Positions 9,171-21,670 of a DNA stretch of 64,000 nt are shown here, one piece after another. This stretch comes from a virus. Below the pieces are notes generated by a model. That model was not told the DNA's origin and ran no database searches. It saw only the letters and a list, made by a program, of their open reading frames with translations. Position 1 is the stretch's first letter. Each line of letters starts with the position of its first letter. The translations under genes and the position numbers were made by a program. The stretch lies in IMG/VR virus record IMGVR_UViG_3300050131_000019, positions 1-64,000 of that record; one strand, given 5' to 3'.

Positions 9171-9175
9171 ACTTC

Positions 9176-9253: not shown

Positions 9254-9260
9254 CGGGCAG

Positions 9261-10226
9261 TTAATTCACGTTGTCCAAAACGGTTTCGAGGTCCAAATTT
9301 TTTGAGGCCCACCTATCCACAGAGGCTTCCAGAGGGATACCAAGTTTGCGGCACATCACTGCGATCTGCTGAGCAAACTCCACGGCCACGTTCTTGTCGT
9401 AGTCCCGGCCAAAATCTTCGGCCATAACCTCGGCGGCTAGTGCTCCGGAGAGTTCCGCAAAAATTTTGAATTTCGCCAGTAGCTTTACGGGTGAGTTCTC
9501 TGCGATGCTCTTCTTCTCCTTGGGGGGTTGACCTTGGGCCTCTTCCACCTTTTCCTTGACATCTTTTACTTTCAACTTCTCCCCGGACTTCTCCTTAGCC
9601 TTAATCAGCTTGTCCTGATCGACGGGCTGAAGCTTGGATAGCTGAAGAGCAGCCGATGTGGAAAATTCTCCCTTGCGGAGCTTGTCCTGTGCTTCTGGGG
9701 AGAGTTCCAAGAGCTTCTGGCGCTCCTTGACCCAAGCAACAGCCTTAGCCAGCTTCTCTGGGGTATCCGCTCCGGGGAAGTACTTCTTGGCAATTTCCTC
9801 TACGCCTTTCCCGAACTTGTGTTGGTAGACAGAGATGCAAAAAGCGTCATCGAGGGGGTTCACGTCAGTTCTGTTGCGATTTTCCGCCACGGTAAGGTCA
9901 AGGGCCTCTTCTTCTGACTTTACTGCGGAGTAGTTGAACTTCAGCTTGATCTTCTTAGCCGGGTCTGAAATCGCCCTGTTAAGCTGCACGATAGCCCGGA
10001 GCCTGCGATGCCCGGCAATCAGCACAGGCCACCCTTCCACCGTTTTGCAAGCTATGGCAGCAATGAGTTGACCACGGTGCAGGATATCATCTGCAAGCTC
10101 GGATACGTCTGTCTCTTCACTTCGACCGCTGAGTTCCGGCTTGATGATTACATTTTCAGGGGCAACAACATACCCGCCATTTGCAGTGCGGTCCACTCCA
10201 GCTTCTTTACAGAAAGTTACAGCCAT
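9261..10226 (-). CDS. ParB-like nuclease/DNA-binding domain protein
   Basis: 321 residues. The N-terminal ParB/Srx fold has LIAGHRRLRA (about 68-77) and AENRNRTDVNP (about 113-123). A helix-turn-helix-like segment follows (VEEIAKKYFPG...AKAVAWVKERQKLL), then a Lys/Glu linker (about 215-245) and a helical C-terminus. No partition partner is nearby; phage members may act as transcription or DNA-processing factors. RNA element copy 1 follows its stop. Confidence 0.85.
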   Translation of the reverse strand: MAVTFCKEAGVDRTANGGYVVAPENVIIKPELSGRSEETDVSELADDILHRGQLIAAIACKTVEGWPVLIAGHRRLRAIVQLNRAISDPAKKIKLKFNYSAVKSEEEALDLTVAENRNRTDVNPLDDAFCISVYQHKFGKGVEEIAKKYFPGADTPEKLAKAVAWVKERQKLLELSPEAQDKLRKGEFSTSAALQLSKLQPVDQDKLIKAKEKSGEKLKVKDVKEKVEEAQGQPPKEKKSIAENSPVKLLAKFKIFAELSGALAAEVMAEDFGRDYDKNVAVEFAQQIAVMCRKLGIPLEASVDRWASKNLDLETVLDNVN

Positions 10227-10227
10227 G

Positions 10228-10428
10228 TTATTCCTCCACGGAATCCGACAAATACTTTGTGATGGACCCTACCAAGCTCTCAGCCGGGTCCGAGTTTGAA
10301 ACCTTGAAGCCACTCCCTTTCAAATAAGTATAGACTTGGTGGAAAGCCTCATCTACACTACTTTTAATGAGAGGGTCACTAAGTTCGTACCGCGTGTGCC
10401 AATATCTTCCTTCTGGGGTTATGCTCAT
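10228..10428 (-). CDS. Small hypothetical protein
   Basis: 66 residues, MSITPEGRYWHTRYELSD start, helical middle. ATGA overlap with the upstream gene. Not recognised. Confidence 0.6.
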   Translation of the reverse strand: MSITPEGRYWHTRYELSDPLIKSSVDEAFHQVYTYLKGSGFKVSNSDPAESLVGSITKYLSDSVEE

Positions 10429-10718
10429 TTTTCCCTCGGTAGCGCGGTTTCAGTACGGAAAGGTTCAAAGCTGAGAGACAGGTAGGTGGTATTACCTTCC
10501 CATCGGTCTGTTCGGGCGTGGAATCCCCCGGTACTTACTGACCCGTGTCCCTTGTGCTTCGAGTTAAGTGCGTCTGTGAGAACCGTTCGGGCTGTACTCA
10601 CTAGGTCTTCAAGAGAGGGGGGTCCGTAGAAGTATTGCCAGTCAACGGACTCCATGTAGGCTTTAACCTTGTGGAAGTCAAACTTGTCGAGAGTTTCTTG
10701 AATCACGTTTTGCTTCAT
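10425..10718 (-). CDS. Small conserved phage protein, paralogue of the 4270 gene
   Basis: 97 residues. Shares FDFxKVxAYM, a helical middle and STGGFxAxTD...LSFEPF with the gene at 4270-4587. The ribosome site is GAGGAAAAAAAA-like. Function unknown; two diverged copies in one phage suggest distinct roles. Confidence 0.7.
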   Translation of the reverse strand: MKQNVIQETLDKFDFHKVKAYMESVDWQYFYGPPSLEDLVSTARTVLTDALNSKHKGHGSVSTGGFHARTDRWEGNTTYLSLSFEPFRTETALPREK

Positions 10719-10742
10719 TTTTTTTTCCTCACTTTCAGAGTC

Positions 10743-11015
10743 TCACGAGATTTCGCTCGTGTCAAGAAAATTTTTAATGTCCATCGCATCATATAGATGC
10801 CGCTTTCGCGCCGCAATTTTTTTCGGTAAGAGAATTTTTTCATCTTGCGGCACTCCAGTTTTTCCAAGGTGGAACTTTTTGCACAGCGGACACCTGTAGG
10901 TGTGTAAGAATTCTGCGCCGGGTAACTCTTTTCGGCGCATTTCCAGCATCACACTCTTAGCAAGGTCCTCACTTCTGTATTTCCGTTTTCCGGAAGAGCA
11001 GAGTCTGGATTTCAC
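10743..11015 (-). CDS. Zinc-knuckle protein under pseudoknot RNA copy 2
   Basis: 90 residues, GTG start at 11015 behind AAAGAGGG. YRCPLCKKFHLGKTG is a CxxC-x-H type knuckle common in small phage proteins. The dispersed 15-mer hairpin sequence lies inside its coding region near the start. Confidence 0.7.
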   Translation of the reverse strand: MKSRLCSSGKRKYRSEDLAKSVMLEMRRKELPGAEFLHTYRCPLCKKFHLGKTGVPQDEKILLPKKIAARKRHLYDAMDIKNFLDTSEIS

Positions 11016-11022
11016 AATTTGG

Positions 11023-11103
11023 CCCTCTTTCTAGATCATTGGTAGTTGCACACTCTCGCCGCGTGTAGGCTGATCCGTGAGAGCTACCCCCATACGCTGG
11101 GGG
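11023..11103 (-). ncRNA. Pseudoknot leader RNA element, copy 2
   Basis: Hairpin 1 CCCCCA-GCGTA-TGGGGG (11103-11087) lies inside the last codons of the upstream gene. Stem GCTCTC/GAGAGT encloses GCC-TACACGC-GGC. Pseudoknot GGATCA (11076-11071) with TGATCT (11038-11033), one G-U pair. Confidence 0.75.
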
Positions 11104-11707
11104 CGGGCGGCTGGTAAACAGTTACTGTTGTTCTGGAGTCCTTGGGGGACAAAGCCTTCATTACCTGTGCAATCTGTTCCCTTACTTCGGAAACCTTGCG
11201 GAGGAACAGGTCGTGCCCGAAGTAGGAGGTTTTTGTGAGGTCTGCAAACCACGGAGTTTCTATATCCCACTTTTTGAGGGTACCTATGTAGACGGTAAGG
11301 TCCCTTGTCCTCGGGTCTGTGGTGAGGTCTGTATGGACCAAAAGAAAGGCTGATACTTTGTTCTCTACCCCGTTCCCTGCCCTATTGTGGATTTCGATCA
11401 GGATAAAGGGCGACCCTTTGGGGGCCTCGGAGATAATGCGGAGAACGTCCACATCGTCTTTTGCCGATACGAAACTGTAAGTGTTGGGGGTTTTAGATTT
11501 CACCGGATTCCTCTCTTCGTACTGCTTGTCTGCGGTCTGTCTCGCCTTTAGCTCGTCTGGAGTTTTATTCAGAATCGCGGCGTGGTAAAGATGAACCCAG
11601 TTGTCGTGCGAAACAATTTCTTCCCAACTGTCATTTCCACAATACGCGGCACGATATAGCCGCGCCTTCTCGTATTCTTCGGGGGTGTGCTTTCCAGAAT
11701 AGTTCAT
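11084..11707 (-). CDS. Hypothetical protein of a three-member phage family
   Basis: 207 residues from MNYSGKHTPEEYEK. Its N-terminal 60 residues (EEYEKARLYRAAY...DNWVHLYHAA...TPDELKARQTADK) resemble the genes at 11704 and 28034. A larger C-terminal domain follows (SPFILIEIHNRAG, DLTVYIGTLKKW). ATGA overlap upstream. Confidence 0.65.
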   Translation of the reverse strand: MNYSGKHTPEEYEKARLYRAAYCGNDSWEEIVSHDNWVHLYHAAILNKTPDELKARQTADKQYEERNPVKSKTPNTYSFVSAKDDVDVLRIISEAPKGSPFILIEIHNRAGNGVENKVSAFLLVHTDLTTDPRTRDLTVYIGTLKKWDIETPWFADLTKTSYFGHDLFLRKVSEVREQIAQVMKALSPKDSRTTVTVYQPPAPSVWG

Positions 11708-11910
11708 TTCTTCTCCTTGACAAGTTCTTTGAAAAACTTGTCGGTTAACTCTTTCGCTTTGAGTTCCGTGGGGGTTTTGGCCTGCACGTATAGCTTGTAC
11801 CAGATATCCGCTTCCGTACCCTTCCAAGGTACTTTTCCAAAATTGTACTGGTCAAGCCAAATCTCTTGGTACTTGAGGCCGATTTCGAGTTGCTTCTTGG
11901 TATATTTCAA
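11704..11910 (-). CDS. Small hypothetical protein, TTG start
   Basis: 68 residues. A TTG at 11910 (reading MKYTKKQLEIGLKY) overlaps the upstream stop as TTGA and follows AGGGAAA, matching the N-termini of its relatives at 11084 and 28034. A GTG at 11934 is the longer alternative. Confidence 0.6.
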   Translation of the reverse strand: MKYTKKQLEIGLKYQEIWLDQYNFGKVPWKGTEADIWYKLYVQAKTPTELKAKELTDKFFKELVKEKK

Positions 11911-12101
11911 ATTTTCCCTCCATTCGGTCCACACTTACCGTCGATGTAGTCGAGCCAACGTTTCCTGTTGAAGTTAGGATTCCGGGATTGGCAGAATTCT
12001 GCTAGCTCCCGAACTTCCCCGTTCTTGAAGAGATCAATCCTCCACCGACCTCTGCGGATAACGTTTGCGAGTTCGATAAAGTCCTGATTTGACATACTCA
12101 C
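11907..12101 (-). CDS. Small hypothetical protein
   Basis: 64 residues, basic and Asn/Arg-rich (NPNFNRKRWLDYIDG). Starts at GTG 12101 (GTGA overlap) or ATG 12095, behind GGAGGG. Not recognised. Confidence 0.6.
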   Translation of the reverse strand: MSMSNQDFIELANVIRRGRWRIDLFKNGEVRELAEFCQSRNPNFNRKRWLDYIDGKCGPNGGKI

Positions 12102-12259
12102 GCTCCCTCCAGTGCTTCCTGGATTACTTTTTTGAGTTCTTCCTCATCAAAAACATAAAAGTTGTTCCCTACGTAGGGGTGGACTCTTTCCTCTTGATCC
12201 AAGATTTCCTGCGCGATTTTCTTGGTCAAACGTTCTAAGTTGTTTCCAGTGAATTTCAT
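12098..12259 (-). CDS. Small helical hypothetical protein
   Basis: 53 residues from MKFTGNNLERL behind GAGGAG; ATGA overlap upstream. Amphipathic helices. Not recognised. Confidence 0.6.
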   Translation of the reverse strand: MKFTGNNLERLTKKIAQEILDQEERVHPYVGNNFYVFDEEELKKVIQEALEGA

Positions 12260-12465
12260 TTTCTCCTCCCGTGTACTCCCTTGTTGCAGTGACAAACATC
12301 TGTTATGCCGTGGCTTAAATTCCGTTTTCCGGAACACTTGGCATGATAGTTAGCTTTACAGTAACTACAAGACCCAGATTTCCGGCTAGGTGTAGGGGCT
12401 TCATTTACTGGAAGCCCCAATTTTATGGTCTGATCGATTATCTCAGTTAGCGTTCGGCGTGTCAA
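12256..12465 (-). CDS. Cys/His-rich small protein
   Basis: 69 residues. CSYCKANYHAKCSGKR and CHCNKGVH suggest a zinc-binding cluster. One exact copy of the dispersed 15-mer encodes the GKRN segment. Confidence 0.65.
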   Translation of the reverse strand: MTRRTLTEIIDQTIKLGLPVNEAPTPSRKSGSCSYCKANYHAKCSGKRNLSHGITDVCHCNKGVHGRRK

Positions 12466-12659
12466 GAGGCTTCTCCGTTCAGGACAGCCAAAAGGTTGTT
12501 AAGCAGGTTGTTATCCTCAACAAGATCAGACTTGTGAGATGCAAACTGGAGAGTCTGTTTATTTTCCCAATTCAGACTTCCGGCAAAAGTACAGGGCTGG
12601 ACGGTATATAACAAACTTCCGTCTCGGTACCAAACACCCTCTTTGTAGTCAATTTTCAT
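12462..12659 (-). CDS. Small hypothetical protein under pseudoknot RNA copy 3
   Basis: 65 residues, beta-rich N-terminus then a helical C-terminus ending NNLLAVLNGEAS. The ATG follows AAGGAGG of RNA element copy 3. Not recognised. Confidence 0.6.
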   Translation of the reverse strand: MKIDYKEGVWYRDGSLLYTVQPCTFAGSLNWENKQTLQFASHKSDLVEDNNLLNNLLAVLNGEAS

Positions 12660-12663
12660 ACAC

Positions 12664-12740
12664 CCTCCTTAGACTCTTAGTAGGTGCTCAGCCGCGCCAC
12701 GGGAAGGCGAGTCTTTGCGGCCACCCGGATTTCTCCGGGG
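12664..12740 (-). ncRNA. Pseudoknot leader RNA element, copy 3
   Basis: Hairpin CCCGGA-GAAA-TCCGGG (12739-12724), stem GCCGC/GCGGC enclosing CGCC-TTCCCGT-GGCG, pseudoknot AGACTC (12714-12709) with GAGTCT (12676-12671), then AAGGAGG. Confidence 0.75.
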
Positions 12741-12744
12741 CTAG

Positions 12745-13038
12745 TTACACGAAGGAATACAAGCACTCGAACTCTTCGTCGTAGAGGATTCCGCAGCGGT
12801 GGATGTCAATCAAATCCGCCTCCGTAGCAACTTTTAGGAGTTCCCTTATGTTTGTTTCCAGAAAAATTTCATCGTGCCCGGCATTACTGACCATATCACT
12901 ATTCCCCGGAACCAGTTTATCCAGTAAGAGAAAGCCGTGTAGGTCAGGCCGGTTGCTCAACTTGTTCTCGATACGGTCAAACTTCAAGAACTCGTCGTCG
13001 TGGTCTTTAAAGAATTGGTGTAACTCTTCCTGTTTCAT
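12745..13038 (-). CDS. Conserved phage hypothetical protein
   Basis: 97 residues with DDEFLKFDRIENKLSNRPDL, HDEIFLETN and IHRCGILYDEE, a pattern I recognise from many phage and prophage small proteins of unknown function. TAACATG junction with the upstream reading frame. Confidence 0.7.
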   Translation of the reverse strand: MKQEELHQFFKDHDDEFLKFDRIENKLSNRPDLHGFLLLDKLVPGNSDMVSNAGHDEIFLETNIRELLKVATEADLIDIHRCGILYDEEFECLYSFV

Positions 13039-13039
13039 G

Positions 13040-13240
13040 TTAGCTCCTAATCCAGAAATCTGTATCTCCGAACGACACTAGACTGTAGTCGTACTGAAGT
13101 TCCCTTGCCGCTCTTTCCCAGTCAATGCCGGTATACGGCCAAGAGTTAGATACTTTGTGGTCCAGCATTCCGCAATCCTCGGCTAGCTGCTGCGCGTACT
13201 CTTCAAAGTAGCTGTCCCGGATAAGTGTCTCACCCGAGTC
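13040..13240 (-). pseudogene. C-terminal half of the 13241 gene, beyond an in-frame TAG
   Basis: 66 codons in the same frame as the upstream gene, separated from it only by TAG (13243-13241). It contains TLIRDSYFEEYAQQLAEDCG and WPYTGIDWERAARELQYDYS, conserved features that normally form the C-terminus of one phage/plasmid protein family. No start codon with a ribosome site was seen, so expression would need readthrough of the amber codon. TAG ends many other genes here, so general recoding is excluded. Confidence 0.65.
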
Positions 13241-13537
13241 CTAATCGGAGTAGCCTTCGCACTCTTCAGCCAGTTCCTTGAGAGTCTTGAGTTCTTCCCC
13301 GTCTTCGGACTCGTCCCACTCCTCAAGTTCTTTCTGGGCCGCAGAGAGAGTCTCTCCTAGAGTTTCCAGTTCCTTGGCATCACTCGCCAACACACTGGTA
13401 TCGTCGGTAGCGTCTGTTATGGTTTCTTGCGCCCCGTCAACCGCATCGACCAAGGACTGTCTCTCGGATTCGAGTTCCTCAATCCGCTCGATAACGTCTC
13501 GGCTGTCAATCACGTCGTCAAAGTTACTGATGCTCAT
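13241..13537 (-). CDS. N-terminal part of an amber-interrupted conserved protein
   Basis: 98 residues: IDSRDVIERIEELESERQ then a long acidic coiled-coil-like stretch, ending ELAEECEGYSD-TAG. In relatives known to me the chain continues directly into (L)IRDSYFEEYA; here that continuation follows the TAG in frame. Could be a recent nonsense mutation, leaky readthrough, or a true truncation. Confidence 0.75.
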   Translation of the reverse strand: MSISNFDDVIDSRDVIERIEELESERQSLVDAVDGAQETITDATDDTSVLASDAKELETLGETLSAAQKELEEWDESEDGEELKTLKELAEECEGYSD

Positions 13538-13545
13538 ACGTCCTC

Positions 13546-13899
13546 CTAGACTACCTGTGCAATGGTTGGAAACACGTTTTCTTCGGCTGTCTCACTCAGA
13601 ACGGCAACTATATCTCCCAACACCCGAAAGTTTTCCCCGTATCCGTTGAGACGGTATACTCTCATGTTCACCACGTTTTGGGTGTGTGGGTTGGGGGCCA
13701 ACCCTAAAGAAACGCCGTCTTCGTTTGCATACAACTGTTTGCAATTCCTAATCCCCGGAACCAAGGATTCAATGTAGCCTCCGACAGCTTTCTGAAGCTC
13801 CTTGAAGTCAAACTTCTTTCCGTTTTCCGGTTGGACTTTGATCGTGCGGCCATCTGTCTTGAAGATGTACCCGCGCTGAACTTTCTTTACTGCGGTCAT
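13546..13899 (-). CDS. DUF3846-like phage protein under pseudoknot RNA copy 4
   Basis: 117 residues. FDFKELQKAVGGYIESL, ANEDGVSLGLAPNPHT and VLGDIVAV match the DUF3846 pattern of small phage proteins of unknown function. Translation starts behind GAGGAG at the end of RNA element copy 4. Confidence 0.7.
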   Translation of the reverse strand: MTAVKKVQRGYIFKTDGRTIKVQPENGKKFDFKELQKAVGGYIESLVPGIRNCKQLYANEDGVSLGLAPNPHTQNVVNMRVYRLNGYGENFRVLGDIVAVLSETAEENVFPTIAQVV

Positions 13900-13904
13900 G
13901 TTTT

Positions 13905-13982
13905 CTCCTCGGGTATTTGGTAGTTACGCAGCCACCCCTCGTGCCGGGATACCCTTGTGGCCTGCCGGATAACGCTCCGGCT
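13905..13982 (-). ncRNA. Pseudoknot leader RNA element, copy 4
   Basis: Hairpin GCCGGA-GCGTTA-TCCGGC (13981-13964), stem GCCAC/GTGGC, pseudoknot GGGTAT (13954-13949) with ATACCC (13916-13911). About 75 bases are identical to copy 6 at 17481-17558, pointing to a recent duplication. Confidence 0.8.
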
Positions 13983-13994
13983 AGCGGTTGACTA

Positions 13995-14183
13995 TCATCC
14001 ACACGAAACTAGACTGATGTTTCCATTGTCGTCCGACCCAAAGTTTTCTTTAGCGAAGACAATAGCCTCCTGTTTGGTGGAGAAAATGCCAACATTCCTG
14101 AAAGGTATATCCGGATCACCAAGAGACTCCTCATCGGGGATATCAACGTACCACCGTTTTTCGTAAACGTCAAAATCAGTCAT
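13995..14183 (-). CDS. Small hypothetical protein
   Basis: 62 residues, WYVDIPDEESLGDPDIPF then IFSTKQEAIVFAKENFG, the latter like short phage domains with a conserved helix. Overlaps the upstream gene by 8 bases. Not recognised. Confidence 0.6.
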   Translation of the reverse strand: MTDFDVYEKRWYVDIPDEESLGDPDIPFRNVGIFSTKQEAIVFAKENFGSDDNGNISLVSCG

Positions 14184-14679
14184 CTTCTTCCTCCTCTTCC
14201 GTGTAAGGCGTGAGTGGTGGGTTCTCGGGGACGGCGGAGATTGCTTCCTGCTTTACTGTTTCCAATCCATAAAATCCCCAGCAGGAGTCAACGTCAGTTC
14301 CTTCCCCGTCTTCAATGATAAATCCGTAAACATCCCCAGATAGGTACTGGTTCCAAGTTTCAACCATACCCTCAGCGTATTTCCGGGTATCTGGGGTCTC
14401 GTCGCGCTTGACTACCACGAATCCGATCTGGCCGGAATCAAACCCCATGTAGTAGTGATCCAAGCTGGCTAAGGAAAGATGAACCCCGCCATGAATCAGG
14501 GCTTGCAGGGGGAATACATCATACTCTTCCTCCCACTCTGAAAGATTCTCTCCGATATCCGAGGCGTATTCTCCGTTTGGCCCCTCAACTTCAAAGTAAC
14601 GGTTCCGGGTGGTTACGATAAAGCATTCTTCGTCCCCCTCAAAGGGGCATTCGGCATCAAAGTCTTGCTCAATAGTCAC
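14176..14679 (-). CDS. Conserved phage hypothetical protein
   Basis: 167 acidic residues with DHYYMGFDSGQIGFVVVKRDE and VYGFIIEDGEG...DSCWGFYGLE, a pattern shared by uncharacterised phage proteins. C-terminus EEEEEDD. Overlaps the upstream gene by 4 bases. Confidence 0.65.
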   Translation of the reverse strand: MTIEQDFDAECPFEGDEECFIVTTRNRYFEVEGPNGEYASDIGENLSEWEEEYDVFPLQALIHGGVHLSLASLDHYYMGFDSGQIGFVVVKRDETPDTRKYAEGMVETWNQYLSGDVYGFIIEDGEGTDVDSCWGFYGLETVKQEAISAVPENPPLTPYTEEEEEDD

Positions 14680-14936
14680 TTTGTAGCCATTGTGCGTGAA
14701 GGTTTCGGTTGAGTCGTTTCTCCTACAAGCCTGACTTTCTCCAGCAAACTAGCTGGCACTGAAATTTGGTCCCCGGTCTCCCACTCAACAAACACCAGCA
14801 TCTTGCGCGGGTCCGGGTATACACTCTTACCGTGGAACCCTTCGATCATCCGGCAAACTCCCTTGTTCCCCGGACCTATGCCGGTATAGAAGTCATATCC
14901 GGTAGTCCGAACTACGTCGCCTGCTTGAAATTTCAT
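14676..14936 (-). CDS. Small beta-rich protein (KOW/SH3-like)
   Basis: 86 residues from MKFQAGDVVRTTG behind GGAGG. Pattern F-x-GDxVR...GxKGV...VxWxxGD...VPxxLLEKV resembles small SH3-type barrels. First gene after the promoter at 14982. Confidence 0.6.
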   Translation of the reverse strand: MKFQAGDVVRTTGYDFYTGIGPGNKGVCRMIEGFHGKSVYPDPRKMLVFVEWETGDQISVPASLLEKVRLVGETTQPKPSRTMATK

Positions 14937-14953
14937 AAATCCTCCACTTTTCG

Positions 14954-14982
14954 ATTGTCGCACAAATTTTCAGGTTTGTCAA
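14954..14982 (-). promoter_or_regulatory. Leftward sigma-70 promoter
   Basis: TTGACA (14982-14977), 17 bases, GACAAT (14959-14954), followed by GGAGG and the ATG at 14936. A TGTGGAAAACGTTGCAA box sits just upstream. Confidence 0.75.
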
Positions 14983-15001
14983 ACGTTGTGTTTTCAACGG
15001 T

Positions 15002-15018
15002 TTGCAACGTTTTCCACA
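15002..15018 (-). promoter_or_regulatory. TGTGGAAAACGTTGCAA box, copy A
   Basis: 17-base element about 20 bases upstream of the -35 box, followed by CCGTTGAAAAC. The same box recurs at 17242, 18887 and (opposite orientation) 20377. Likely a regulator-binding site. Confidence 0.6.
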
Positions 15019-15028
15019 GTTTCCACAG

Positions 15029-15043
15029 TTCCGGAAAACGGAA
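15029..15043. repeat. Dispersed 15-mer hairpin
   Basis: Exact TTCCGTTTTCCGGAA (minus strand), immediately after the stop of the gene at 15044. See the finding on this repeat. Confidence 0.7.
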
Positions 15044-15409
15044 TTACCTCGCCCGGTAAACTGGAACCTCCGCCAGTTTGAGACAAAGGGCGGCGGCGAG
15101 GCGATGGTTTCCCTCTAGGTTATCTCCACTTAGAGAGAGAGGATGATCGATTCCGCGCTCCTCTACTTCACTAATAAGCTCCTCTCCGGCAAACTTTTTG
15201 AGTCGTTCGTGGCTCCACCCCCGGAATACCACTGCGGCATTTCGTATTTCTTCGGGGCGCAGATAGACAAATTCCCAATCCGTCTCTCCCCGTTTCTCGT
15301 AGGAATCCAGAAGACAGCGGGCATCGTCGGAACTCTCGGGGTCCGGGATATTCTGCCAAGTACTAAATATGGTCCCCGGCTCTGGATTGTACGGCGATCT
15401 GGGTTTCAT
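15044..15409 (-). CDS. ParB/sulfiredoxin-like small protein
   Basis: 121 residues from MKPRSPYNPEP. The C-terminal SLSGDNLEGNHRLAAALCL...VPVYRAR matches the ligand loop of the ParB-like nuclease fold (GNHRLAAA in place of GHRRL). ATGA overlap with the upstream gene. Confidence 0.7.
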   Translation of the reverse strand: MKPRSPYNPEPGTIFSTWQNIPDPESSDDARCLLDSYEKRGETDWEFVYLRPEEIRNAAVVFRGWSHERLKKFAGEELISEVEERGIDHPLSLSGDNLEGNHRLAAALCLKLAEVPVYRAR

Positions 15410-15978
15410 TCCGCACTCCCTCTGGTATGTACCCAACATACCGCTTGTAGGTCGCGGGGAGAAATTCCCCCTATCCAGCGAGAAGCCTCTTGGTAGCTGG
15501 CTTCCATTTCGAGATACATCCTGCCCCCAATGGCAATAGCTGTACACAAAGGATTCGCCGCTCTAGCGGCCCAAACGTCGATGGTGCATACGTATGAGTT
15601 TCCGGTAATGTTCTTGAAGAATCTTTGTACTTTCAGCCAACGGTTACAGCGAGTACCTGATGTGAAAGTCTTCATCGGGTCTTCCCCGTTAGCAATGTTC
15701 CACGCCTTGTTAATGTTCATGTAGGTTCCGGCCACGCTCGGTATGATTTGTGACCCATTATCCGCCGCCCGGATAATCAACCTAGCCCCTTTCACGTTTG
15801 TTTCCCATGTTTGTCTGGGGGATAGCGCGGCTATTACACCGGCACCCCTGTTAACATCTTTTGGGCAGAGTTCCCTTGCAAGAGATTCTGCGCGGCCATA
15901 CCATTCCCGGCCAGCCCGCAACTCATCTTTACTGGCCGAGGAATAGCATTTGATTATGTTACGGACAAAAGGTTTCAT
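15406..15978 (-). CDS. DUF7178-like / DNA-glycosylase-like phage protein
   Basis: 190 residues from MKPFVRNIIKCY. WYGRAESLARELCP, AGVIAALSPRQTWETNVKGAR, CTIDVWAARAA and ISPRDLQAVCWVHTRG form a signature I associate with phage proteins having a helix-hairpin-helix glycosylase-like fold. Substrate unknown. The ATG overlaps the upstream TAA by one base. Confidence 0.65.
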   Translation of the reverse strand: MKPFVRNIIKCYSSASKDELRAGREWYGRAESLARELCPKDVNRGAGVIAALSPRQTWETNVKGARLIIRAADNGSQIIPSVAGTYMNINKAWNIANGEDPMKTFTSGTRCNRWLKVQRFFKNITGNSYVCTIDVWAARAANPLCTAIAIGGRMYLEMEASYQEASRWIGGISPRDLQAVCWVHTRGSAE

Positions 15979-16187
15979 TACTCCCCCAGAAAGTCTTTGA
16001 CAATTTCCGCAAGCTCTTCCCAAGTGTCTAAGGAGTCTTTGTAGGCCCGTACTGACGCGTCGTTTGCAGAAGTGTGGTGGGGCAGCATGTAGTCTCCGTC
16101 TATCCGAAGTTTGTGCCCATCTTTTCGAGTTACCGTTAGGACGGGCTGATCCCCGTAAATGTTGATTTCTAAATCAAGTTTTGCCAT
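15978..16187 (-). CDS. Small hypothetical protein under pseudoknot RNA copy 5
   Basis: 69 residues; a beta-rich start (LDLEINIYGDQPVLTVTRKDG) then an acidic helix. Preceded by AAAGGAGG of RNA element copy 5. Not recognised. Confidence 0.6.
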   Translation of the reverse strand: MAKLDLEINIYGDQPVLTVTRKDGHKLRIDGDYMLPHHTSANDASVRAYKDSLDTWEELAEIVKDFLGE

Positions 16188-16190
16188 TAT

Positions 16191-16274
16191 TCCTCCTTTG
16201 GAGATTGGCCGGATTGCTCCGTTTCTAGCCCCGCTACGTAGAAGCTCTCCTTGGGGCCACCCCGTAACCGGGGG
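16191..16274 (-). ncRNA. Pseudoknot leader RNA element, copy 5
   Basis: Hairpin CCCCG-GTTA-CGGGG (16273-16260), stem GCCCC/GGGGC, inner hairpin GCTTCTACGTAGC, pseudoknot GGAGA (16250-16246) with TCTCC (16204-16200). The linker carries an extra small hairpin, making this the most diverged copy. Confidence 0.65.
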
Positions 16275-16275
16275 G

Positions 16276-16917
16276 TTAATCCTTATTCCTTTCCCTATTC
16301 ATGCTGTTTACTGCGTCTTCTCCTTCTTGGTCCATTGCACCCCAGAGGATAGTGTCAAACTCTCCGTTGCAGTTACTATCCTCCATGATGTCATATTCGT
16401 TCCACTCTCTTTGTTCGAGGAAAGCATCAATCAGTGTTCTGATCTGGTTGTGGTCCCACTCTGAAACATTTTTGGGCCACTCCGACAGATTTGAAGAGTA
16501 GAAGCTAAGAAATCCATCATAGCTGGTGAATTTCTCTTTAACTACCTTCCGAAGAACTTCTTTATCCGCCCCCGTGTACAATCTCTTTACCGCAGCGGCG
16601 GGTATTGTCAGGAAAATCCGGTCGGTAGCGAAGTTGTATGCTCGGGGGGATTCCAAAGCGTCCCACTTCGCGTTGAGGTCAATCTTCGTCTCATCCTTGA
16701 ACCACGCGCAAAAGTTTTCTGCGTACATTTTGGCATATTCCCTGTACGCCTGCTGCCAGTTGATATGCTCCCACAGTTCGAGCGGCTCACCTTCGGAGTC
16801 TGCCAGAGGAATCTGATCTCCGTGGTCATCTTCGGTTATTTGCTCACAAGCCTTATCTAGCTCAGAATTATGGATAGAGTTGTAGAATCCGGAAAACGGA
16901 ATTGTTGCTGTCGGCAT
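16276..16917 (-). CDS. Conserved phage hypothetical protein
   Basis: 213 residues. IPFSGFYNSIHNSELDKA, the SPRAYNFATDRIFLTIP segment and FTSYDGFLSFYSS make up a family frequent in phage early regions; I recall no established function. One near-exact 15-mer hairpin copy lies in its first codons. Confidence 0.7.
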   Translation of the reverse strand: MPTATIPFSGFYNSIHNSELDKACEQITEDDHGDQIPLADSEGEPLELWEHINWQQAYREYAKMYAENFCAWFKDETKIDLNAKWDALESPRAYNFATDRIFLTIPAAAVKRLYTGADKEVLRKVVKEKFTSYDGFLSFYSSNLSEWPKNVSEWDHNQIRTLIDAFLEQREWNEYDIMEDSNCNGEFDTILWGAMDQEGEDAVNSMNRERNKD

Positions 16918-16925
16918 GATACCTC

Positions 16926-17174
16926 CTACACAAACTCAGTTACGGTTAGTATGTTTTGCAGGAGAACAGACTCCTGCCGGTTATGCGCCTTGATGCTAGA
17001 GGCCACCAGAAGCGCGGTAGGATGAGATATGCCCTCAAGCTCAATTACCAGAGAACCTTCCTCTACCCCTTTCCACGCTCCGGTAGCCTTGTACATCGTG
17101 TAGCCCTCGACTAGCCCGGAGAGAATCTTCTTGATTCCCTTCACATTTTTGCGCTCTGTAAAAATTCTGTACAT
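16926..17174 (-). CDS. Small hypothetical protein
   Basis: 82 residues from MYRIFTERKNVKG behind GGAGG, first gene after the promoter at 17222. The pattern YTMYKATGAWKGVEEGSLVIEL resembles a small beta-barrel common in phages. Function unknown. Confidence 0.65.
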   Translation of the reverse strand: MYRIFTERKNVKGIKKILSGLVEGYTMYKATGAWKGVEEGSLVIELEGISHPTALLVASSIKAHNRQESVLLQNILTVTEFV

Positions 17175-17193
17175 GTTTTCCTCCACTTTTTGA

Positions 17194-17222
17194 ATCGTAC
17201 CTGAAATTTTTAGGTTTGTCAA
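17194..17222 (-). promoter_or_regulatory. Leftward sigma-70 promoter
   Basis: TTGACA (17222-17217), 17 bases, TACGAT (17199-17194). The spacer AACCTAAAAATTTCAGG is similar to that of the promoter at 14982 (AACCTGAAAATTT), and the same upstream box is present. Confidence 0.7.
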
Positions 17223-17241
17223 CCAGCGAAAACAAAAGACT

Positions 17242-17258
17242 TAGCAACGTTTTCCACA
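17242..17258 (-). promoter_or_regulatory. TGTGGAAAACGTTGCTA box, copy B
   Basis: Second copy of the 17-base element, upstream of the 17222 promoter. A further half-like copy (TGTGCAAAACCTTGAAAACC) lies just upstream. Confidence 0.55.
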
Positions 17259-17280
17259 GGTTTTCAAGGTTTTGCACAGG

Positions 17281-17475
17281 CTAGAATTTTCGGGCATCAA
17301 CTATCACGTTGCAGACCGGCTCGGTCCAGAAGCTAAACGTGTAACCACATTCTGGACAATTGTCTGTCCAATACCCCGCAGAGGGGTTGTCATAGAAGTC
17401 CAGCGAAAGACTCTTATCACACGCAGGGCACTTGAAGTTTTCCGTGTTTCCTGCGTTTTCGCCAACTACAATCAT
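17281..17475 (-). CDS. Zinc-ribbon protein under pseudoknot RNA copy 6
   Basis: 64 residues with FKCPACDKSL and DNCPECGYTFSF, two CxxC knuckles of a zinc ribbon. Preceded by GAGGAGG of RNA element copy 6. Confidence 0.7.
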   Translation of the reverse strand: MIVVGENAGNTENFKCPACDKSLSLDFYDNPSAGYWTDNCPECGYTFSFWTEPVCNVIVDARKF

Positions 17476-17480
17476 AAATC

Positions 17481-17558
17481 CTCCTCGGGTATTTGGTAGT
17501 TACGCAGCCACCCCTCGTGCCGGGATACCCTTGTGGCCTGCCGGATAACGCTCCGGCC
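17481..17558 (-). ncRNA. Pseudoknot leader RNA element, copy 6
   Basis: Near-identical to copy 4: hairpin GCCGGA-GCGTTA-TCCGGC (17557-17540), pseudoknot GGGTAT (17530-17525) with ATACCC (17492-17487). It stands before an unrelated gene, so the element moves independently of coding sequence. Confidence 0.8.
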
Positions 17559-17561
17559 CGG

Positions 17562-17666
17562 TTATCGGAGAACTATTGCCAAGATGAGCAAGAGCAAACC
17601 TACAGAAGCTACGAACAGAACAGGAAACCAACTGACTGTTATGGGAGAATTTCTCAGTTTCTTCAT
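17562..17666 (-). CDS. 34-residue single-span membrane peptide
   Basis: MKKLRNSPITVSWFPVLFV then SVGLLLLILAIVLR: one transmembrane segment with a positively charged N-terminus. The ATG directly follows the TAG of another membrane peptide gene. Candidate lysis or envelope peptide; function unknown. Confidence 0.6.
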   Translation of the reverse strand: MKKLRNSPITVSWFPVLFVASVGLLLLILAIVLR

Positions 17667-17789
17667 CTACCACACCTTACTGAGAAAGTGCCAAGCCACT
17701 ATACCAACCACAATCCAGAAGCCAGCACCTAGAATGAATACCGCGCCCCACGCAACAAGAAACTCTGTATTAACCTCCTGTCGTCTCAT
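17667..17789 (-). CDS. 40-residue single-span membrane peptide
   Basis: MRRQEVNTEFLVAWG followed by VFILGAGFWIVVGIVAWHFL, one transmembrane helix. Good GAGGAGG ribosome site; its ATG overlaps the upstream stop (ATGA). It forms a pair with the 34-residue peptide and could be a small holin-like or antiholin-like pair. Confidence 0.6.
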   Translation of the reverse strand: MRRQEVNTEFLVAWGAVFILGAGFWIVVGIVAWHFLSKVW

Positions 17790-17950
17790 ACTTCCTCCTC
17801 GTCAGTCAGTTCCGTTTCTGCGGCAGCACGGAAGGCATCATCGGCTGCACCATAGGCGTCTGATCCTGTCCGGTATATGCAGTTTTGCGCCATTTTTTCA
17901 GACCCAGAAGGGTCTATTACAATGATTTTTACCACCCAAATATCATTCAT
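17786..17950 (-). CDS. Small hypothetical protein under pseudoknot RNA copy 7
   Basis: 54 residues from MNDIWVVKIIVIDPSGSEK behind AAAGGAGG; acidic C-terminus. Coupled by ATGA to the membrane peptide gene. Not recognised. Confidence 0.6.
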   Translation of the reverse strand: MNDIWVVKIIVIDPSGSEKMAQNCIYRTGSDAYGAADDAFRAAAETELTDEEEV

Positions 17951-17953
17951 ACT

Positions 17954-18036
17954 TCCTCCTTTGGGTAATCTGTAAACTCCAACACCCACGCCACTTGACG
18001 GCTTACCCGTGTGGGCTACCAGATTACGGCTCTGGC
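17954..18036 (-). ncRNA. Pseudoknot leader RNA element, copy 7
   Basis: Hairpin CCAGA-GCCGTAA-TCTGG (18035-18019), stem GCCCAC/GTGGGT with inner GCC-GTCAAGT-GGC, pseudoknot GGGTAA (18008-18003) with TTACCC (17968-17963), then AAAGGAGG. Confidence 0.75.
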
Positions 18037-18047
18037 TGGCCGGTAGA

Positions 18048-18581
18048 TTAGAAAGAGTAGTCTTCTGCCTCTGTGCGGGTGAGGAAGAAATGAATTCCGG
18101 AACCACATACTGTCCAACGGTTTTCATTCCAGCCGTTGAGCGGCACTACCGTCTCTCCTTTTCGGTAGGTAATAACCCCGTACTTTCCCCCGCTTTTCGC
18201 TTCTTCGGCCCCCACCACTTCGAGGACTACTGCTTTAGAGCACCGGCACTTGCGCCCCGCCCCGTGGCTTCTCTTAGCGTCTTCTGTGATGAGGAGTTTT
18301 ACCAGAATACCGCCGCTACATTTCTTCCACCCCACGAAAGACCCCTCTTCCGGAAGGAACTGTATCTGTGCTACAGCCCTTTCTGCGTTTTCGGCTCCGG
18401 ACAGGTCGGCTCCGTACAGGTTGGCTCCGTACAGGTTGGCTCCGGACAGGTTGGCTCCGGACAGGTAGGCTCCGTACAGGTTGGCTTTTGCTGCCATCGC
18501 CGCAACAACCAATTCGGTAATTGTCTTAGCGGCCTCAAGAGTAAACAAGACCGCTCCATAAACGTTTTTCAGTTCCATCAC
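18048..18581 (-). CDS. Pentapeptide-repeat protein with DUF5758-like C-terminus
   Basis: 177 residues. About residues 31-62 are tandem pentapeptides (ANLYG, AYLSG, ANLSG, ADLSG), expected to form a short right-handed quadrilateral helix. The C-terminal domain (VKLLITEDAKRS, RKCRCSKAVVLEV, CGSGIHFFLTRTEAEDY) matches the DUF5758-type domain that accompanies such repeats in phages. Role unknown; some pentapeptide proteins mimic DNA, but this repeat is short. The repeats are near-identical in DNA, so expansion is probably recent. Confidence 0.75.
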   Translation of the reverse strand: MMELKNVYGAVLFTLEAAKTITELVVAAMAAKANLYGAYLSGANLSGANLYGANLYGADLSGAENAERAVAQIQFLPEEGSFVGWKKCSGGILVKLLITEDAKRSHGAGRKCRCSKAVVLEVVGAEEAKSGGKYGVITYRKGETVVPLNGWNENRWTVCGSGIHFFLTRTEAEDYSF

Positions 18582-18588
18582 ATCTCCT

Positions 18589-18819
18589 TTACCGTGCTAA
18601 CAAAGCCGCCCATTCGTCCGTATGGAATTTAACCACACGAGCCTGTAAGAACGTTCCGCAGAACTCCAAGGCTGCGGCATGAGTCTTAAAATCTGCCGCG
18701 CTACCGTAGAGGTTACGGGCTTCCACGTACCCACCGTCTTTGTAGATGAGTACACTGTATTCCCCGGAAGTAAATCCGGTGCTAAGGTTGTGCTGTCCTG
18801 CTAACGGTGTTTCTTGCAT
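18589..18819 (-). CDS. Small hypothetical protein
   Basis: 76 residues from MQETPLAGQHNL behind GGAGG. Contains GGYVEARNLYGSAADFKTHAAALEFC. Not recognised. Confidence 0.6.
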   Translation of the reverse strand: MQETPLAGQHNLSTGFTSGEYSVLIYKDGGYVEARNLYGSAADFKTHAAALEFCGTFLQARVVKFHTDEWAALLAR

Positions 18820-18860
18820 AAATCCTCCGATGTTCAAAGCATTTCTGAAACTTTCGTTGT

Positions 18861-18903
18861 TGTCAAATCCGTTTATTTTCAACGGCTTGCAGCGTTTTCC
18901 ACA
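18861..18903 (-). promoter_or_regulatory. Third copy of the upstream box with a TTGACA -35
   Basis: TGTGGAAAACGCTGCAA (18903-18887), CCGTTGAAAATAAACGGA, then TTGACA (18866-18861). The -10 at the expected spacing is weak (AATGCT). Same arrangement as at 14982 and 17222. Confidence 0.5.
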
Positions 18904-18966
18904 GCCCAACGGGGAATATCTCCAACGGTTCCAATCTTCTTCCATACAGGCTGATTTGTCACCCGG

Positions 18967-19176
18967 CTACCTCACTCTCTCATTACAGCGGTTGTAGATT
19001 GGTTCGGAGGCATCCACATACTTCTGGATGGCGGGGGAATACTTCGGCTCCGCCAAGAAGTTTAAGATACGCTGTGCGAAATGCCCTGCGTCTGTTTCCC
19101 CGTCGAGCCACAGGCTAGTTCCATCTTCCCGGACGATCTCAGCACAATTGTAATTGAGGCTTATTGTTCCCTTCAT
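18967..19176 (-). CDS. Small hypothetical protein, paralogue of the 19651 gene
   Basis: 69 residues. MKGTISLNYNCAEIVREDGTSLWLDG and AGHFAQRILNFLAEPK align with the gene at 19651 (MREDGVELSLS, AEYAQAILNFLQEAK). ATGA overlap upstream. Function unknown. Confidence 0.6.
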   Translation of the reverse strand: MKGTISLNYNCAEIVREDGTSLWLDGETDAGHFAQRILNFLAEPKYSPAIQKYVDASEPIYNRCNERVR

Positions 19177-19490
19177 ACTTCCTCCTCATAGTCCAAGTAG
19201 TCCAGATCGTCCCAATAGTCTTTCTCTTGCATCTCCTGATAGTCGCGGCACTCTTTGGTATGAGTGTAAGTCCCGAAGACGTACTCCGGGTCAAACCACA
19301 TACCGGATACCCAAGCATCCTCGCCTTGAATAGTCAACAGTAGATGCTGGTCGTGTCCCGCGCACCCTGGGCAAGAAGAGTATCGCCAGTCCCGCACGGT
19401 AAAAGTCTCTGTTGTGCCGTGTATTGACATGGAGAACCAGCGGTCTCTGTCATTACATACGGTAACCTTGTCTCCGATTCGGAACGTCAT
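19173..19490 (-). CDS. Small conserved hypothetical protein
   Basis: 105 residues, FRIGDKVTVCNDRDR barrel-like start, CPGCAGHDQHLLL zinc-knuckle-like segment, very acidic C-terminus (YWDDLDYLDYEEEV). Overlaps the gene below by 4 bases. Confidence 0.6.
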   Translation of the reverse strand: MTFRIGDKVTVCNDRDRWFSMSIHGTTETFTVRDWRYSSCPGCAGHDQHLLLTIQGEDAWVSGMWFDPEYVFGTYTHTKECRDYQEMQEKDYWDDLDYLDYEEEV

Positions 19491-19654
19491 ATCTCCTCCA
19501 CTCCTTCAATTCTGTCCGGCATAGCATTGCTGTGCATTGCGTAGCCGACACCATACTTGGCCACATATTCTACAGCCGCGCTACCACTTACCGCGCTTAT
19601 CCTGATAGTCTCAGAAAATCCCCGGTAAGAGTAGAACACCCGGTAGTCTTTCAC
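19487..19654 (-). CDS. 55-residue hypothetical protein, GTG start
   Basis: GTG at 19654 behind AGGAGGCC, reading MKDYRVFYSYRGFSETIRI and ending RIEGVEEI. Four-base overlaps with both neighbours (GTGA upstream, ATGA downstream) support it. Not recognised. Confidence 0.6.
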   Translation of the reverse strand: MKDYRVFYSYRGFSETIRISAVSGSAAVEYVAKYGVGYAMHSNAMPDRIEGVEEI

Positions 19655-19857
19655 TTGGCCTCCTGTAAGAAGTTTAGTATGGCCTGGGCGTACTCGGCGG
19701 CATCATACATCCGGGTCTCTTCCCCGATCTGGTCATTACCCTTCCATCGCATGAAAGAGTTCCTCCAGCTAGAGAGGGATAACTCTACCCCATCCTCTCT
19801 CATTACCGACACGGAAGCTACGCCACTTCCTTCGTGTACTATCATTGTCCCTGTCAT
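19651..19857 (-). CDS. Small hypothetical protein, paralogue of the 18967 gene
   Basis: 68 residues with VMREDGVELSLSS and EYAQAILNFLQEAK, related to the 18967 gene. ATG behind GGAGGAATT. Function unknown. Confidence 0.6.
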   Translation of the reverse strand: MTGTMIVHEGSGVASVSVMREDGVELSLSSWRNSFMRWKGNDQIGEETRMYDAAEYAQAILNFLQEAK

Positions 19858-20034
19858 AATTCCTCCAACAATCTGCGGATAAATTCAACGGTATCCTTTT
19901 TCCGTTTGTCCAGAGCACACTCAGTGTACCTCGAACAACCTTGTGTAGTCAACTGGTCGGCCACCAAACTCCCTTGCACGTTGGCTAGCCGAAGGAATAA
20001 GTACAATCTCCTTGTGGCACAGGGAGCATGTCAT
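19854..20034 (-). pseudogene. Frameshifted Cys-knuckle protein
   Basis: Frame 1 reads MTCSLCHKEIVLIPSASQRA...RPVDYTRLFEVH then TGA (19923-19921). A shifted frame continues TECALDKRKKDTVEFIRRLLEEL and ends in an ATGA overlap with the next gene, so it is the natural C-terminus. Relatives I know carry C-x2-C...PSAxxRA...DYTxLF..HxxC as one chain. The junction GTACACTGAG looks like loss of one AC from ACACAC, or a -2/+1 recoding site. Confidence 0.65.
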
Positions 20035-20301
20035 TTACAGCCCCCTATAACCATACCCCAACTTCTGTGAGGTATGATAGACCATTTCCTTGAGGTTGGT
20101 GATCTTGGCGGACTCCTCAGCGATTATCTCTGAGGTAATAGTTACTAGTTGGTCGAGCAGGAGGGTATGTTCCCCCACCACCAGAGACTTTTGGTACCCC
20201 TTGAATCTGAATGTGGCGGACTCAAGCAATGAGTTATGGCGTGCAATCGCTTCCTCATACCGTGCGATTGCTCCTATGCGCTTTGCTTTCTTCGTCTGCA
20301 T
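20035..20301 (-). CDS. Helical hypothetical protein
   Basis: 88 residues from MQTKKAKRIGAIARYEEAI behind CAAGGAG, mostly helical with coiled-coil tendency. First gene of a leftward transcription unit. Not recognised. Confidence 0.6.
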   Translation of the reverse strand: MQTKKAKRIGAIARYEEAIARHNSLLESATFRFKGYQKSLVVGEHTLLLDQLVTITSEIIAEESAKITNLKEMVYHTSQKLGYGYRGL

Positions 20302-20323
20302 TGTAGCTCCTTGCCGTGTTGGT

Positions 20324-20420
20324 CGCGGCGATGTTTTGACCATAGGCGCAACGATTTTTTTTTGCAAGCCCCATTTTGTGGAAAACGCTGCAAGTTATTG
20401 AAAACGAAGCGAAAATAAAG
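20324..20420 (-). promoter_or_regulatory. Leftward promoter region with inverted upstream box
   Basis: On the minus strand TTGCAA, a 17-base spacer of mostly A then CGTTGCGCC, and TATGGT, upstream of the 20035 gene. The TGTGGAAAACGCTGCAA box is at 20377-20393 but in the opposite (plus) orientation, followed by TTATTGAAAACG. Confidence 0.45.
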
Positions 20421-20993
20421 TTCAAAATTGTGGGAAACTATTTTTAGCAACCTGTGGAAAACCGCTTTGGCCCAAAAATTGCTCGCGTGCGATAATAGAC
20501 CGGCCAACCAAACAACGTACTCCTTACCACACTACCACTCAAGGATGCGCGTGCGGGCGCGTAGGACGCGATAATAGGCACTATGCGCGATACTCTTCCC
20601 CAATTATTCCGTTTTCCGGAATATCACGCGGCACGATTCCACGTTCTGATTAAAAAAAGGGAGTGTAGCAGACTGGTAAGGTGCTGGTAAACTACTGATA
20701 GCAGACAAGTTGCGGCATGATTCACTGATCTTATCCCCGCTACCGAGTGTATTAGGCCGGTCAAGGTATGATACGTGCTATGGTGGAGTACAGGGAAGGA
20801 TCGTTTTCGCCTGATTTTCGCTTTGACGCTTTACTAACGATTTATAGGCTTATGGCGCGATAGTTCGGATTTTTGACTAGGGTATATGCTTAGACTCGCC
20901 AGCACGCTGGATAAACCGTTATGCTAACGCGGGGATCACCGTTGCACGCGCCCATGCGCTACACTTTTACAGGTTTTCAAGATATTTTGGCGC
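20421..20993. other. Non-coding stretch
   Basis: About 570 bases without a supported gene. It contains a second TGTGGAAAAC-like site (20453), GCGATAATAG repeats (20491 and 20569), and one exact 15-mer hairpin (20607-20621). Probably a regulatory boundary between two leftward units. Confidence 0.5.
20607..20621. repeat. Dispersed 15-mer hairpin
   Basis: Exact TTCCGTTTTCCGGAA in non-coding DNA. Confidence 0.7.
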
Positions 20994-21021
20994 AAGAAAA
21001 ACCCCATCCGAGGATGGGGTT
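20994..21021 (-). terminator. Rho-independent terminator, leftward
   Basis: Minus strand AACCCCATCC-TC-GGATGGGGTT followed by TTTCTT: a 10-bp perfect stem with a T tract, ending the unit that contains the genes at 21042-21832. Confidence 0.85.
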
Positions 21022-21041
21022 CAATCTTTACAGCGAATTGA

Positions 21042-21314
21042 CTATGCGCAAGCTTTACAGTGACAACCTAGTACAGGGGATGTGACATGAGCGAATGCAA
21101 GCTGCGAGGCGACACGCGAACGGTGGGCAAGTAGCTGGGCCTTGCTCTGGTATTCCGTGCGTGACACGCTACCATCGGACCGCGCTGTGACGCTGTAATA
21201 TGCAGGCATAGACCGCACAGCTTGTACAGGCCGGGATGGTACGTGGAAGTGCACGCTCGGGGCGTGAGGGCCAAACGTAGCAGGATGGGGCTGTATGATG
21301 CGCGTCTGAATCAT
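21042..21314 (-). CDS. Small hypothetical protein
   Basis: 90 residues, His/Pro-rich N-terminus (IIQPHPATFGPHAPSVHFHV) and a CHCKAC C-terminus. ATGA overlap with the upstream gene. Not recognised. Confidence 0.5.
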   Translation of the reverse strand: MIQTRIIQPHPATFGPHAPSVHFHVPSRPVQAVRSMPAYYSVTARSDGSVSRTEYQSKAQLLAHRSRVASQLAFAHVTSPVLGCHCKACA

Positions 21315-21481: not shown

Positions 21482-21670
21482 CATACACACTCCAAAAGCA
21501 AACCCCGCACCCATCAAGGGATACAGGGTTTTCGGCTTAGATAAAATGCCCCCGTACAGTCTCACAGACCCTACAAAGGCATTTTACCGTTTTGTTGTGT
21601 TCCGCGAATATGGCCCTTACATCTTTTGCGGCTAATCCGCTCCATTTTGCCGCAAGATTCCAGCACCGTG

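Follow-up and report, generated by a model that had tools for sequence, protein, structure and literature searches.

The 64,000-nucleotide (nt) stretch of DNA analyzed here, hereafter the window, comprises positions 1 to 64,000 of the 77,775-bp IMG/VR virus record IMGVR_UViG_3300050131_000019 (G000), and carries on its minus strand a run of small genes among which a 77-nt module occurs twice, at 13905-13981 and 17481-17557. Each copy holds, from 5' to 3', a hairpin, a predicted cleavage site, a predicted hepatitis delta virus (HDV)-like ribozyme, and a Shine-Dalgarno (SD) sequence. A preliminary description of this DNA had noted two copies, identical over about 75 bases, ahead of different genes, without identifying the element as a ribozyme or recognizing its five further relatives in the record. 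Exact identity extends over 77 nt at most, the ends first assigned to it lying 1 nt too far, and the downstream minus-strand open reading frames (ORFs), 13546-13899 and 17281-17475, specify unrelated products (BLASTP E = 4.5). The labels DUF3846-like and zinc-ribbon given to these products are weak but fair, the former matching DUF3846 at E = 7.3e-5, under the Pfam cut-off, and the latter matching several zinc-ribbon or zinc-finger models weakly, with none above the cut-off among the best 25 of 29. The identity starts at the first base of the hairpin and stops at the last base of the SD sequence GAGGAG. Duplication of a longer gene block is ruled out, both flanks being unrelated, and among the four direct-repeat families listed at 28 nt or more no other is both long and dispersed: besides the 77-nt pair there are one tandem array with a 15-nt unit and two pairs measuring 28-30 nt. 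The earlier proposal that the element was copied apart from its flanking code is supported, the identity being exactly the module with neither flank, and the pair indicates that the cassette is the unit of copying. Gene conversion, which the description also suggested, and copying by insertion may each have produced the pair. Elsewhere, four contigs with one common sequence (L123, L154, L210 and L222), counting as one independent example, bear a 59-nt ribozyme block twice, 143 nt apart, with divergent upstream sequence beginning precisely at the cleavage site.

On the minus strand the module reads, after the hairpin and one base, GGCCAC, AA, GGGTAT, CCC, GGCACGA, GGG, GTGGCT, a linker whose last bases are CCAA, then ATACCC and GAGGAG. 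This layout matches the HDV-like order P1, P2, P3, L3, P3', P1', J4/2 and P2', and accordingly the repeated element is predicted to be a minimal HDV-like self-cleaving ribozyme with a nested double pseudoknot. Five similar sites were first recognized by eye, and a descriptor scan of the whole record then returned seven loci (six distinct), all on the minus strand and each directly before a start codon; we name them by the coordinate of G1. The exact copies contain rz13962 (13911-13962; hairpin 13964-13981, 6 bp with a 6-nt loop), whose predicted cut falls between 13963 and 13962 and whose downstream gene 13546-13899 starts 11 nt past P2', and rz17538 (17487-17538; hairpin 17540-17557), followed by 17281-17475. 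The five diverged copies, which go beyond the pair previously described, are rz18016 (17963-18016; hairpin 18018-18036, 6 bp with a 7-nt loop) before the gene 17786-17950; rz16258 (16200-16258; hairpin 16260-16273, 5 bp with a 4-nt loop, an alternative reading of which ends at the cut) before 15978-16187; rz12722 (12671-12722; hairpin 12724-12739, 6 bp with a 4-nt loop) before 12462-12659; rz11084 (11033-11084; hairpin 11086-11104, 7 bp with a 5-nt loop, within the upstream ORF 11084-11827) before 10743-11015; and rz9233 (9182-9233; hairpin 9235-9254, 7 bp with a 6-nt loop) before 8931-9170. All seven have nested P1, P2 and P3 with a 7-nt L3, and a C-N-R-A motif with the catalytic cytosine in J4/2 before P2', features that the scan requires. 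The P4 domain is absent from six of them, its place taken by a linker of 13-15 nt, while the 22-nt linker of rz16258 holds a short P4-like hairpin recognized by eye. When A, G or T was demanded in place of the catalytic C, no new locus emerged, the A and T variants each re-matching one of the seven under a different reading. Among Rfam models, no known riboswitch reached its gathering score in the window, where only a tRNA and a twister did so.

A match to the descriptor must have P1, P2, P3, G1 and the catalytic C, whereas the U opposite G1 (U37) and the P1.1 pairs are left free. Hence, pairing and covariation in the three demanded helices arise partly by construction, and the independent part of the evidence is the rate in shuffled sequence. 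One hundred dinucleotide shuffles of the record, searched on both strands, gave eight matches in total, and 400 further shuffles gave 45, or 0.11 per genome, against seven in the real record. The U opposite G1, the wobble partner that we take to have a role at the cleavage site of HDV-like ribozymes, is present in 7/7 real and 10/45 shuffled matches, both P1.1 pairs in 6/7 and 11/45, respectively, and the two features together in 6/7 and 2/45. Given these rates, the seven loci are unlikely to be due to chance. P1.1, formed between L3 and the strand after P1', pairs in 13 of 14 cells, with AU, GC, CG and UA at one pair and CG and UA at the other, both sides varying. Across the seven-element alignment, in which two rows are the same ribozyme and rz16258 is slightly misaligned, 98.3% of 118 cells are paired, and both sides vary in 13 of 17 pairs; none of 500 shuffles reached these figures, and when the partner was shifted by 1-3 columns pairing fell to 34-49%. 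A broader alignment of 63 elements from many phages (68 unique short-linker elements minus L112, L116, L128, L146, L150 and L165, plus rz16258) pairs in 96.1% of the cells of P1, P3 and P1.1, and in 92.1% for P1.1 alone, with U opposite G1 in 60 of 62 scorable rows; the measure "further pair types" came out below every shuffle. The same descriptor scan retrieved the published drz-Mtgn-1. A plus-strand match at 71203 with a 76-nt linker, from a looser scan, is taken as chance. Matches to the covariance models R1 and R2, which were built from these elements, are by construction for the seven loci here and for four of the seven in another viral record, G005.

The surroundings of the seven loci are as regular as their folds. 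In every case the predicted cut comes 1 nt after the end of a hairpin of 5 bp or more, an arrangement found at 2.8% of 63,940 minus-strand positions and, by the same criterion, at 86 of 2,320 positions lying 40-79 nt upstream of SD-ATG sites. The 1-nt rule was first noticed in these seven and afterwards held in all four HDV-like elements of the distant relative G015, each with the hairpin at a gap of 1 (one also at 0), the background there being 2.5%. Hairpin sequences vary among cassettes, the identical pair excepted, giving six distinct ones. On the downstream side, P2' reaches the SD sequence, and the start codon follows P2' by 11-12 nt in 6/7 and by 17 nt (GTG) in rz11084; an SD sequence and the first codon of a reading frame no shorter than 50 codons thus lie 11-17 nt downstream in 7/7, as compared to 0.5% of 63,800 minus-strand positions. 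Upstream, the distance from the stop codon to the predicted cut is 17-32 nt in 6/7. No cleavage site has a tRNA 3' end within 5 nt (0/7), the sole tRNA of the window being at 3205-3278, and hence we do not file these elements as tRNA-associated theta ribozymes. ORF 4799-5665 was considered as a CCA-adding enzyme, an identity that found no support: it has no Pfam match, and a PHROG nucleotidyltransferase matches it at E = 0.061.

In a hand-made gene list for 8931-18820, in which four entries are in the wrong frame or place and junction lengths are approximate, 11 junctions exceed 60 nt, and seven of these hold the ribozymes. Two others bear promoter-like sites (17222-17194 and 14982-14954), one is covered by ORF 12098-12337, and one (13169-13240) lies in a seemingly interrupted minus-strand frame, 13040-13537, which by eye is broken by an in-frame TAA at 13241-13243. 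Promoter-like sites number 14 overall as against 11.3 in shuffles, and the strongest, 12465-12437, falls at a gene overlap; being near the shuffled expectation, they are to be read only as suggestions. A scan of 8800-22500 for intrinsic terminators lists none at the seven hairpins, with 15 overall against 14.9 in shuffles. A Twister-P5 ribozyme (21857-21920, minus strand; 51.6 bits against a gathering score of 37.6) is flanked by the stop of ORF 21923-22306 on one side and by the start of ORF 21671-21832 on the other, an equivalent location taken by another ribozyme class.

G015 (47,077 bp) is a distant relative, with portal, terminase and polymerase proteins 43%, 33% and 42% identical to those of the present phage and five early genes 30-65% identical. 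Its minus-strand early region carries HDV-like elements at 10687, 10267, 9679 and 7427, a Twister-P5 above its cut-off (53.4 bits), a twister-P1-like element under its cut-off (46.1 bits against 67.2, E = 5e-8), and a hammerhead-like core that scores 22.6 bits in Rfam, under the cut-off of 48.5, and in which our own search, composed after the core had been spotted by eye, finds the core and three stems. A second match of that search, in L230 at 12071, is taken as chance. A hairpin close to GTCCGAATAATGGAC (L235) recurs at G015 junctions and in one case forms the P4 hairpin in an HDV-like element. At three orthologous junctions the two phages differ: after the pentapeptide gene there is an HDV-like element here and the hammerhead-like one in G015; before ORF 16926-17174 a promoter-like site here and the Twister-P5 in G015; and before ORF 11907-12101 an overlapping gene here and an HDV-like element in G015. 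Inspection revealed no ribozyme directly before either of the other two shared early genes (14176-14679 and 10228-10428) in either phage. The differing elements at the three junctions point to cutting itself as the shared function, with the elements turning over independently of the genes.

Searches for a close sister spanning both copies of the 77-nt module returned none: L004, 99.98% identical to the window over 11075-1912, covers window 1912-11075 only and holds rz9233 with part of rz11084, and G001 lacks 5170-23059. G001 is identical or almost so over 1-5169 and 23060-77775 and yields no ribozyme match, but it stops where the ribozyme region would lie and thus does not demonstrate absence of the ribozymes. 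Candidates obtained with the DUF3846 protein and ORF 16276-16917 included no relative. L004 has about 1.1 kb extra (its 4607-5692) at window 6470-6485, and from the overlap between the present record and G001 the genome may measure about 106 kb, with 28.7 kb and 17.9 kb missing from them, respectively. The sole named relative found by portal protein (31% identity) is Tunturiibacter phage Tunturi_3, of an Acidobacteriota host. It yielded no convincing ribozyme. Its whole record has no match to R2 and one to R1 at E = 0.04 that is not HDV-like in appearance; Rfam at gathering lists no ribozyme in its 40000-97608; and the descriptor, applied to three stretches, gave none at the looser setting and one chance-like match (65-nt linker, 5-bp P1) at the first setting. 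An RNA ligase domain (PF09414) is present in Tunturi_3 and has no match in G000 or G001. Tunturi_3 also encodes a permuted transfer-messenger RNA (RF04321; PP885686, 88172-88396) and an RF-1 domain protein. In the present phage an RF-1 domain protein with a GGQ motif, possibly a ribosome-rescue factor, is encoded at 26696-27082 on the plus strand (PF00472, over the cut-off); a connection with the ribozymes is doubtful, as L082 and L084 also have an RF-1 protein and no HDV-like ribozyme was found there. Among other genes of the window are a family A DNA polymerase at 174-3194 (minus strand) with an insert that by eye looks intein-like, and a GIY-YIG ORF at 7605-8009, with others of similar appearance elsewhere.

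In viral contigs more widely, the descriptor gave at least 127 matches in at least 95 of at least 117 loci; at least 111 are unique, including the seven of the window, and at least 104 remain without duplicates and the window. Among the 104 listed, 12 lie beside a tRNA (by ARAGORN or a T-loop motif), a count that may be too low because several uncalled flanks look tRNA-like by eye, and in 30 P2' is followed, at no more than 36 nt, by an SD-like motif and an ORF start, two of the 30 being also tRNA-linked; when positions in these loci are drawn at random, the leader-type arrangement occurs at 615 of 9,360 (6.6%). Counted by covariance-model matches per whole record, G000 and G005 have seven each and G007 to G011, several of which resemble one another, five each; of the remaining 28 of 35 records, 26 have 1-3 and two have none. 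As these records were mostly picked for holding matches, the figures give no estimate of prevalence. No protein is common to G005 and the present phage at E <= 1e-4 (ORFs of at least 50 codons). A 17-base linker pattern retrieved 73 stretches. A descriptor scan of the loci collected gave one convincing element, that of L004, a contig supplied by a separate search; a strict SD pattern retrieved L004 only. A pattern of about 20 fixed bases for the 13-nt-linker subtype occurs in 26 viral stretches and has zero matches in the bacterial and archaeal genome collection (genome_contigs). We take as chance the descriptor matches in L007, L029, L073 and L075 and two in L084. The array phage G007 additionally has a RAGATH-16 RNA at L227 9845-9915 (minus strand).

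We consider it quite probable that the seven elements are HDV-like ribozymes lodged in intercistronic cassettes, and that they divide a polycistronic transcript into shorter mRNAs. Each cassette would run from a stop codon through a short hairpin, one unpaired nucleotide, the cleavage site, the ribozyme, and the SD sequence to a start codon. During transcription of the minus-strand operon, every ribozyme would fold and sever the strand it belongs to immediately 5' of G1. The upstream message would then finish with a hairpin plus a 3' overhang of 1 nt, where a 2',3'-cyclic phosphate is expected, and the downstream message would begin with a 5'-OH on a compact pseudoknot some 11-12 nt ahead of the start codon. 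A hairpin-ended RNA should withstand 3' exonucleases, and a 5'-OH pseudoknot end should withstand enzymes that require a 5' phosphate. The polycistronic transcript would in this manner be converted to shorter mRNAs with structured ends, host endonucleases not being needed, and the operon would fall into blocks that decay and are translated separately. The cassette would also be portable, with one copied within the genome and other self-cleaving classes occupying orthologous junctions of a distant relative. We infer the cutting from the retained catalytic features and from these other classes at equivalent positions; the end chemistry and the effects on stability and expression are likewise predictions of the model. 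More tentatively, and at rather less than even chances, the cassette may in some phages be independent of ribozyme class, its slot accepting any of three classes and whole cassettes being gained, lost or copied between junctions apart from the genes, such that segmentation by RNA alone sets the dosage of neighboring genes and the hairpin with its overhang might imitate a tRNA acceptor end, thereby protecting the 3' end.

Several observations weigh against the segmentation model. No Rfam HDV model reaches its gathering score in the window, the weak match of rz12722 to HDV-F-prausnitzii (RF02682) being at 19.0 bits (E = 4.4) against a gathering score of 44, and in rz18016 only one P1.1 pair forms. 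In rz11084 the cut is predicted inside the UAG stop of ORF 11084-11827 (window 11084-11086); this looks harmful, and the upstream product, on a non-stop message, would be left without a stop codon. The remaining gene junctions, at most 24 nt long or overlapping, have no ribozyme; since most small genes thus overlap or nearly touch, the operon would be split into blocks and not wholly into single genes. The hairpin gap in four G005 elements is 2, 1, 2 and 3, showing that the exact 1-nt spacing is not general, and among the matches listed, 28 non-tRNA leaders outside the window include 19 with a hairpin at a gap of 0-4 and nine without. Lastly, no HDV-like match was found in G002, G003, G004 and G037, which are nearer by terminase, though these are fragments.

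The closeness of P2' to the SD sequence, with the start codon 11-12 nt past it in all but one case, would also suit a pseudoknot that mainly controls translation, in the manner of a riboswitch or a protein-bound leader, its folding setting ribosome access and cleavage being secondary or absent. We regard this as unlikely, since the U opposite G1, which is tied to HDV catalysis and would be unneeded in a simple pseudoknot, is kept in all seven, the record has no HDV-shaped locus with a non-C catalytic position, and other self-cleaving classes occur at the same kind of position both here and in G015. Less probable still is that the cassettes are selfish or mobile, invading junctions by copying without benefiting the phage. 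The exact 77-nt copy with its module-exact ends, the differing orthologous junctions, and the repeated ribozyme blocks in other phages would accord with such spreading, but the five other copies have diverged yet retain U37 and nearly all P1.1 pairs, all seven lie in sense directly before an SD sequence, and no mobility gene was recognized among the neighboring proteins scanned, though GIY-YIG ORFs such as 7605-8009 do occur elsewhere in the record. Most improbable are relics of tRNA-processing theta ribozymes after tRNA loss, with the hairpin a shrunken acceptor stem: the fold is that of theta and minimal drz ribozymes, and a tRNA likewise places a stem at the cut with 1 nt overhanging, but sequence varies among the six distinct hairpins, no member of the set adjoins a tRNA, and the catalytic features look intact, which argues against decaying relics.

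Why phages carry many small self-cleaving ribozymes is largely an open question, and the position, orientation, SD spacing, and change of class between phages seen here point to mRNA segmentation between genes as one answer. Every cassette predicts one exact, mappable 5'-OH end, and the 77-nt cassette offers a natural compact part for separating the genes of an operon. Openly licensed PubMed Central papers yielded neither an account of HDV-like arrays immediately ahead of phage SD sequences nor one of ribozyme classes being exchanged at junctions, though subscription papers or supplements may hold one; on this basis, the HDV-like leader array with its duplicated cassette counts, relative to the papers searchable in that literature, as a new form of something already known. 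Among Rfam families, Twister-P5 (RF02684) has one member in the window that is alike in its position between stop and start and unlike the seven in fold, and HDV-F-prausnitzii only weakly matches rz12722.

The closest known system in fold is the theta or drz-Mtgn type of Caudoviricetes. In Kienbeck et al. 2024 (PMC10879173), 58% of 1281 theta or minimal HDV-like ribozymes lie at tRNA 3' ends, over 80% of the set comes from gut phages, and most of the non-tRNA cases have no annotated ORF within 200 nt and are assigned no function. The present elements share the minimal fold and the phage setting, but none is at a tRNA, each abuts an SD sequence, they form a seven-member array, and the nearest named relative of their phage by portal infects an Acidobacteriota host. 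The closest in arrangement are the hammerhead clusters of prophages, which, in Perreault et al. 2011 (PMC3088659), flank single genes or blocks of genes, cut in vitro (in the A. tumefaciens triple also in E. coli), and prompted a proposal of transcript segmentation. Both systems place several self-cleaving ribozymes around genes; unlike those clusters, the array described here belongs to the HDV-like class, has a hairpin upstream of each member and one exact duplicate of a cassette, and differs in ribozyme class from a second phage at orthologous junctions.

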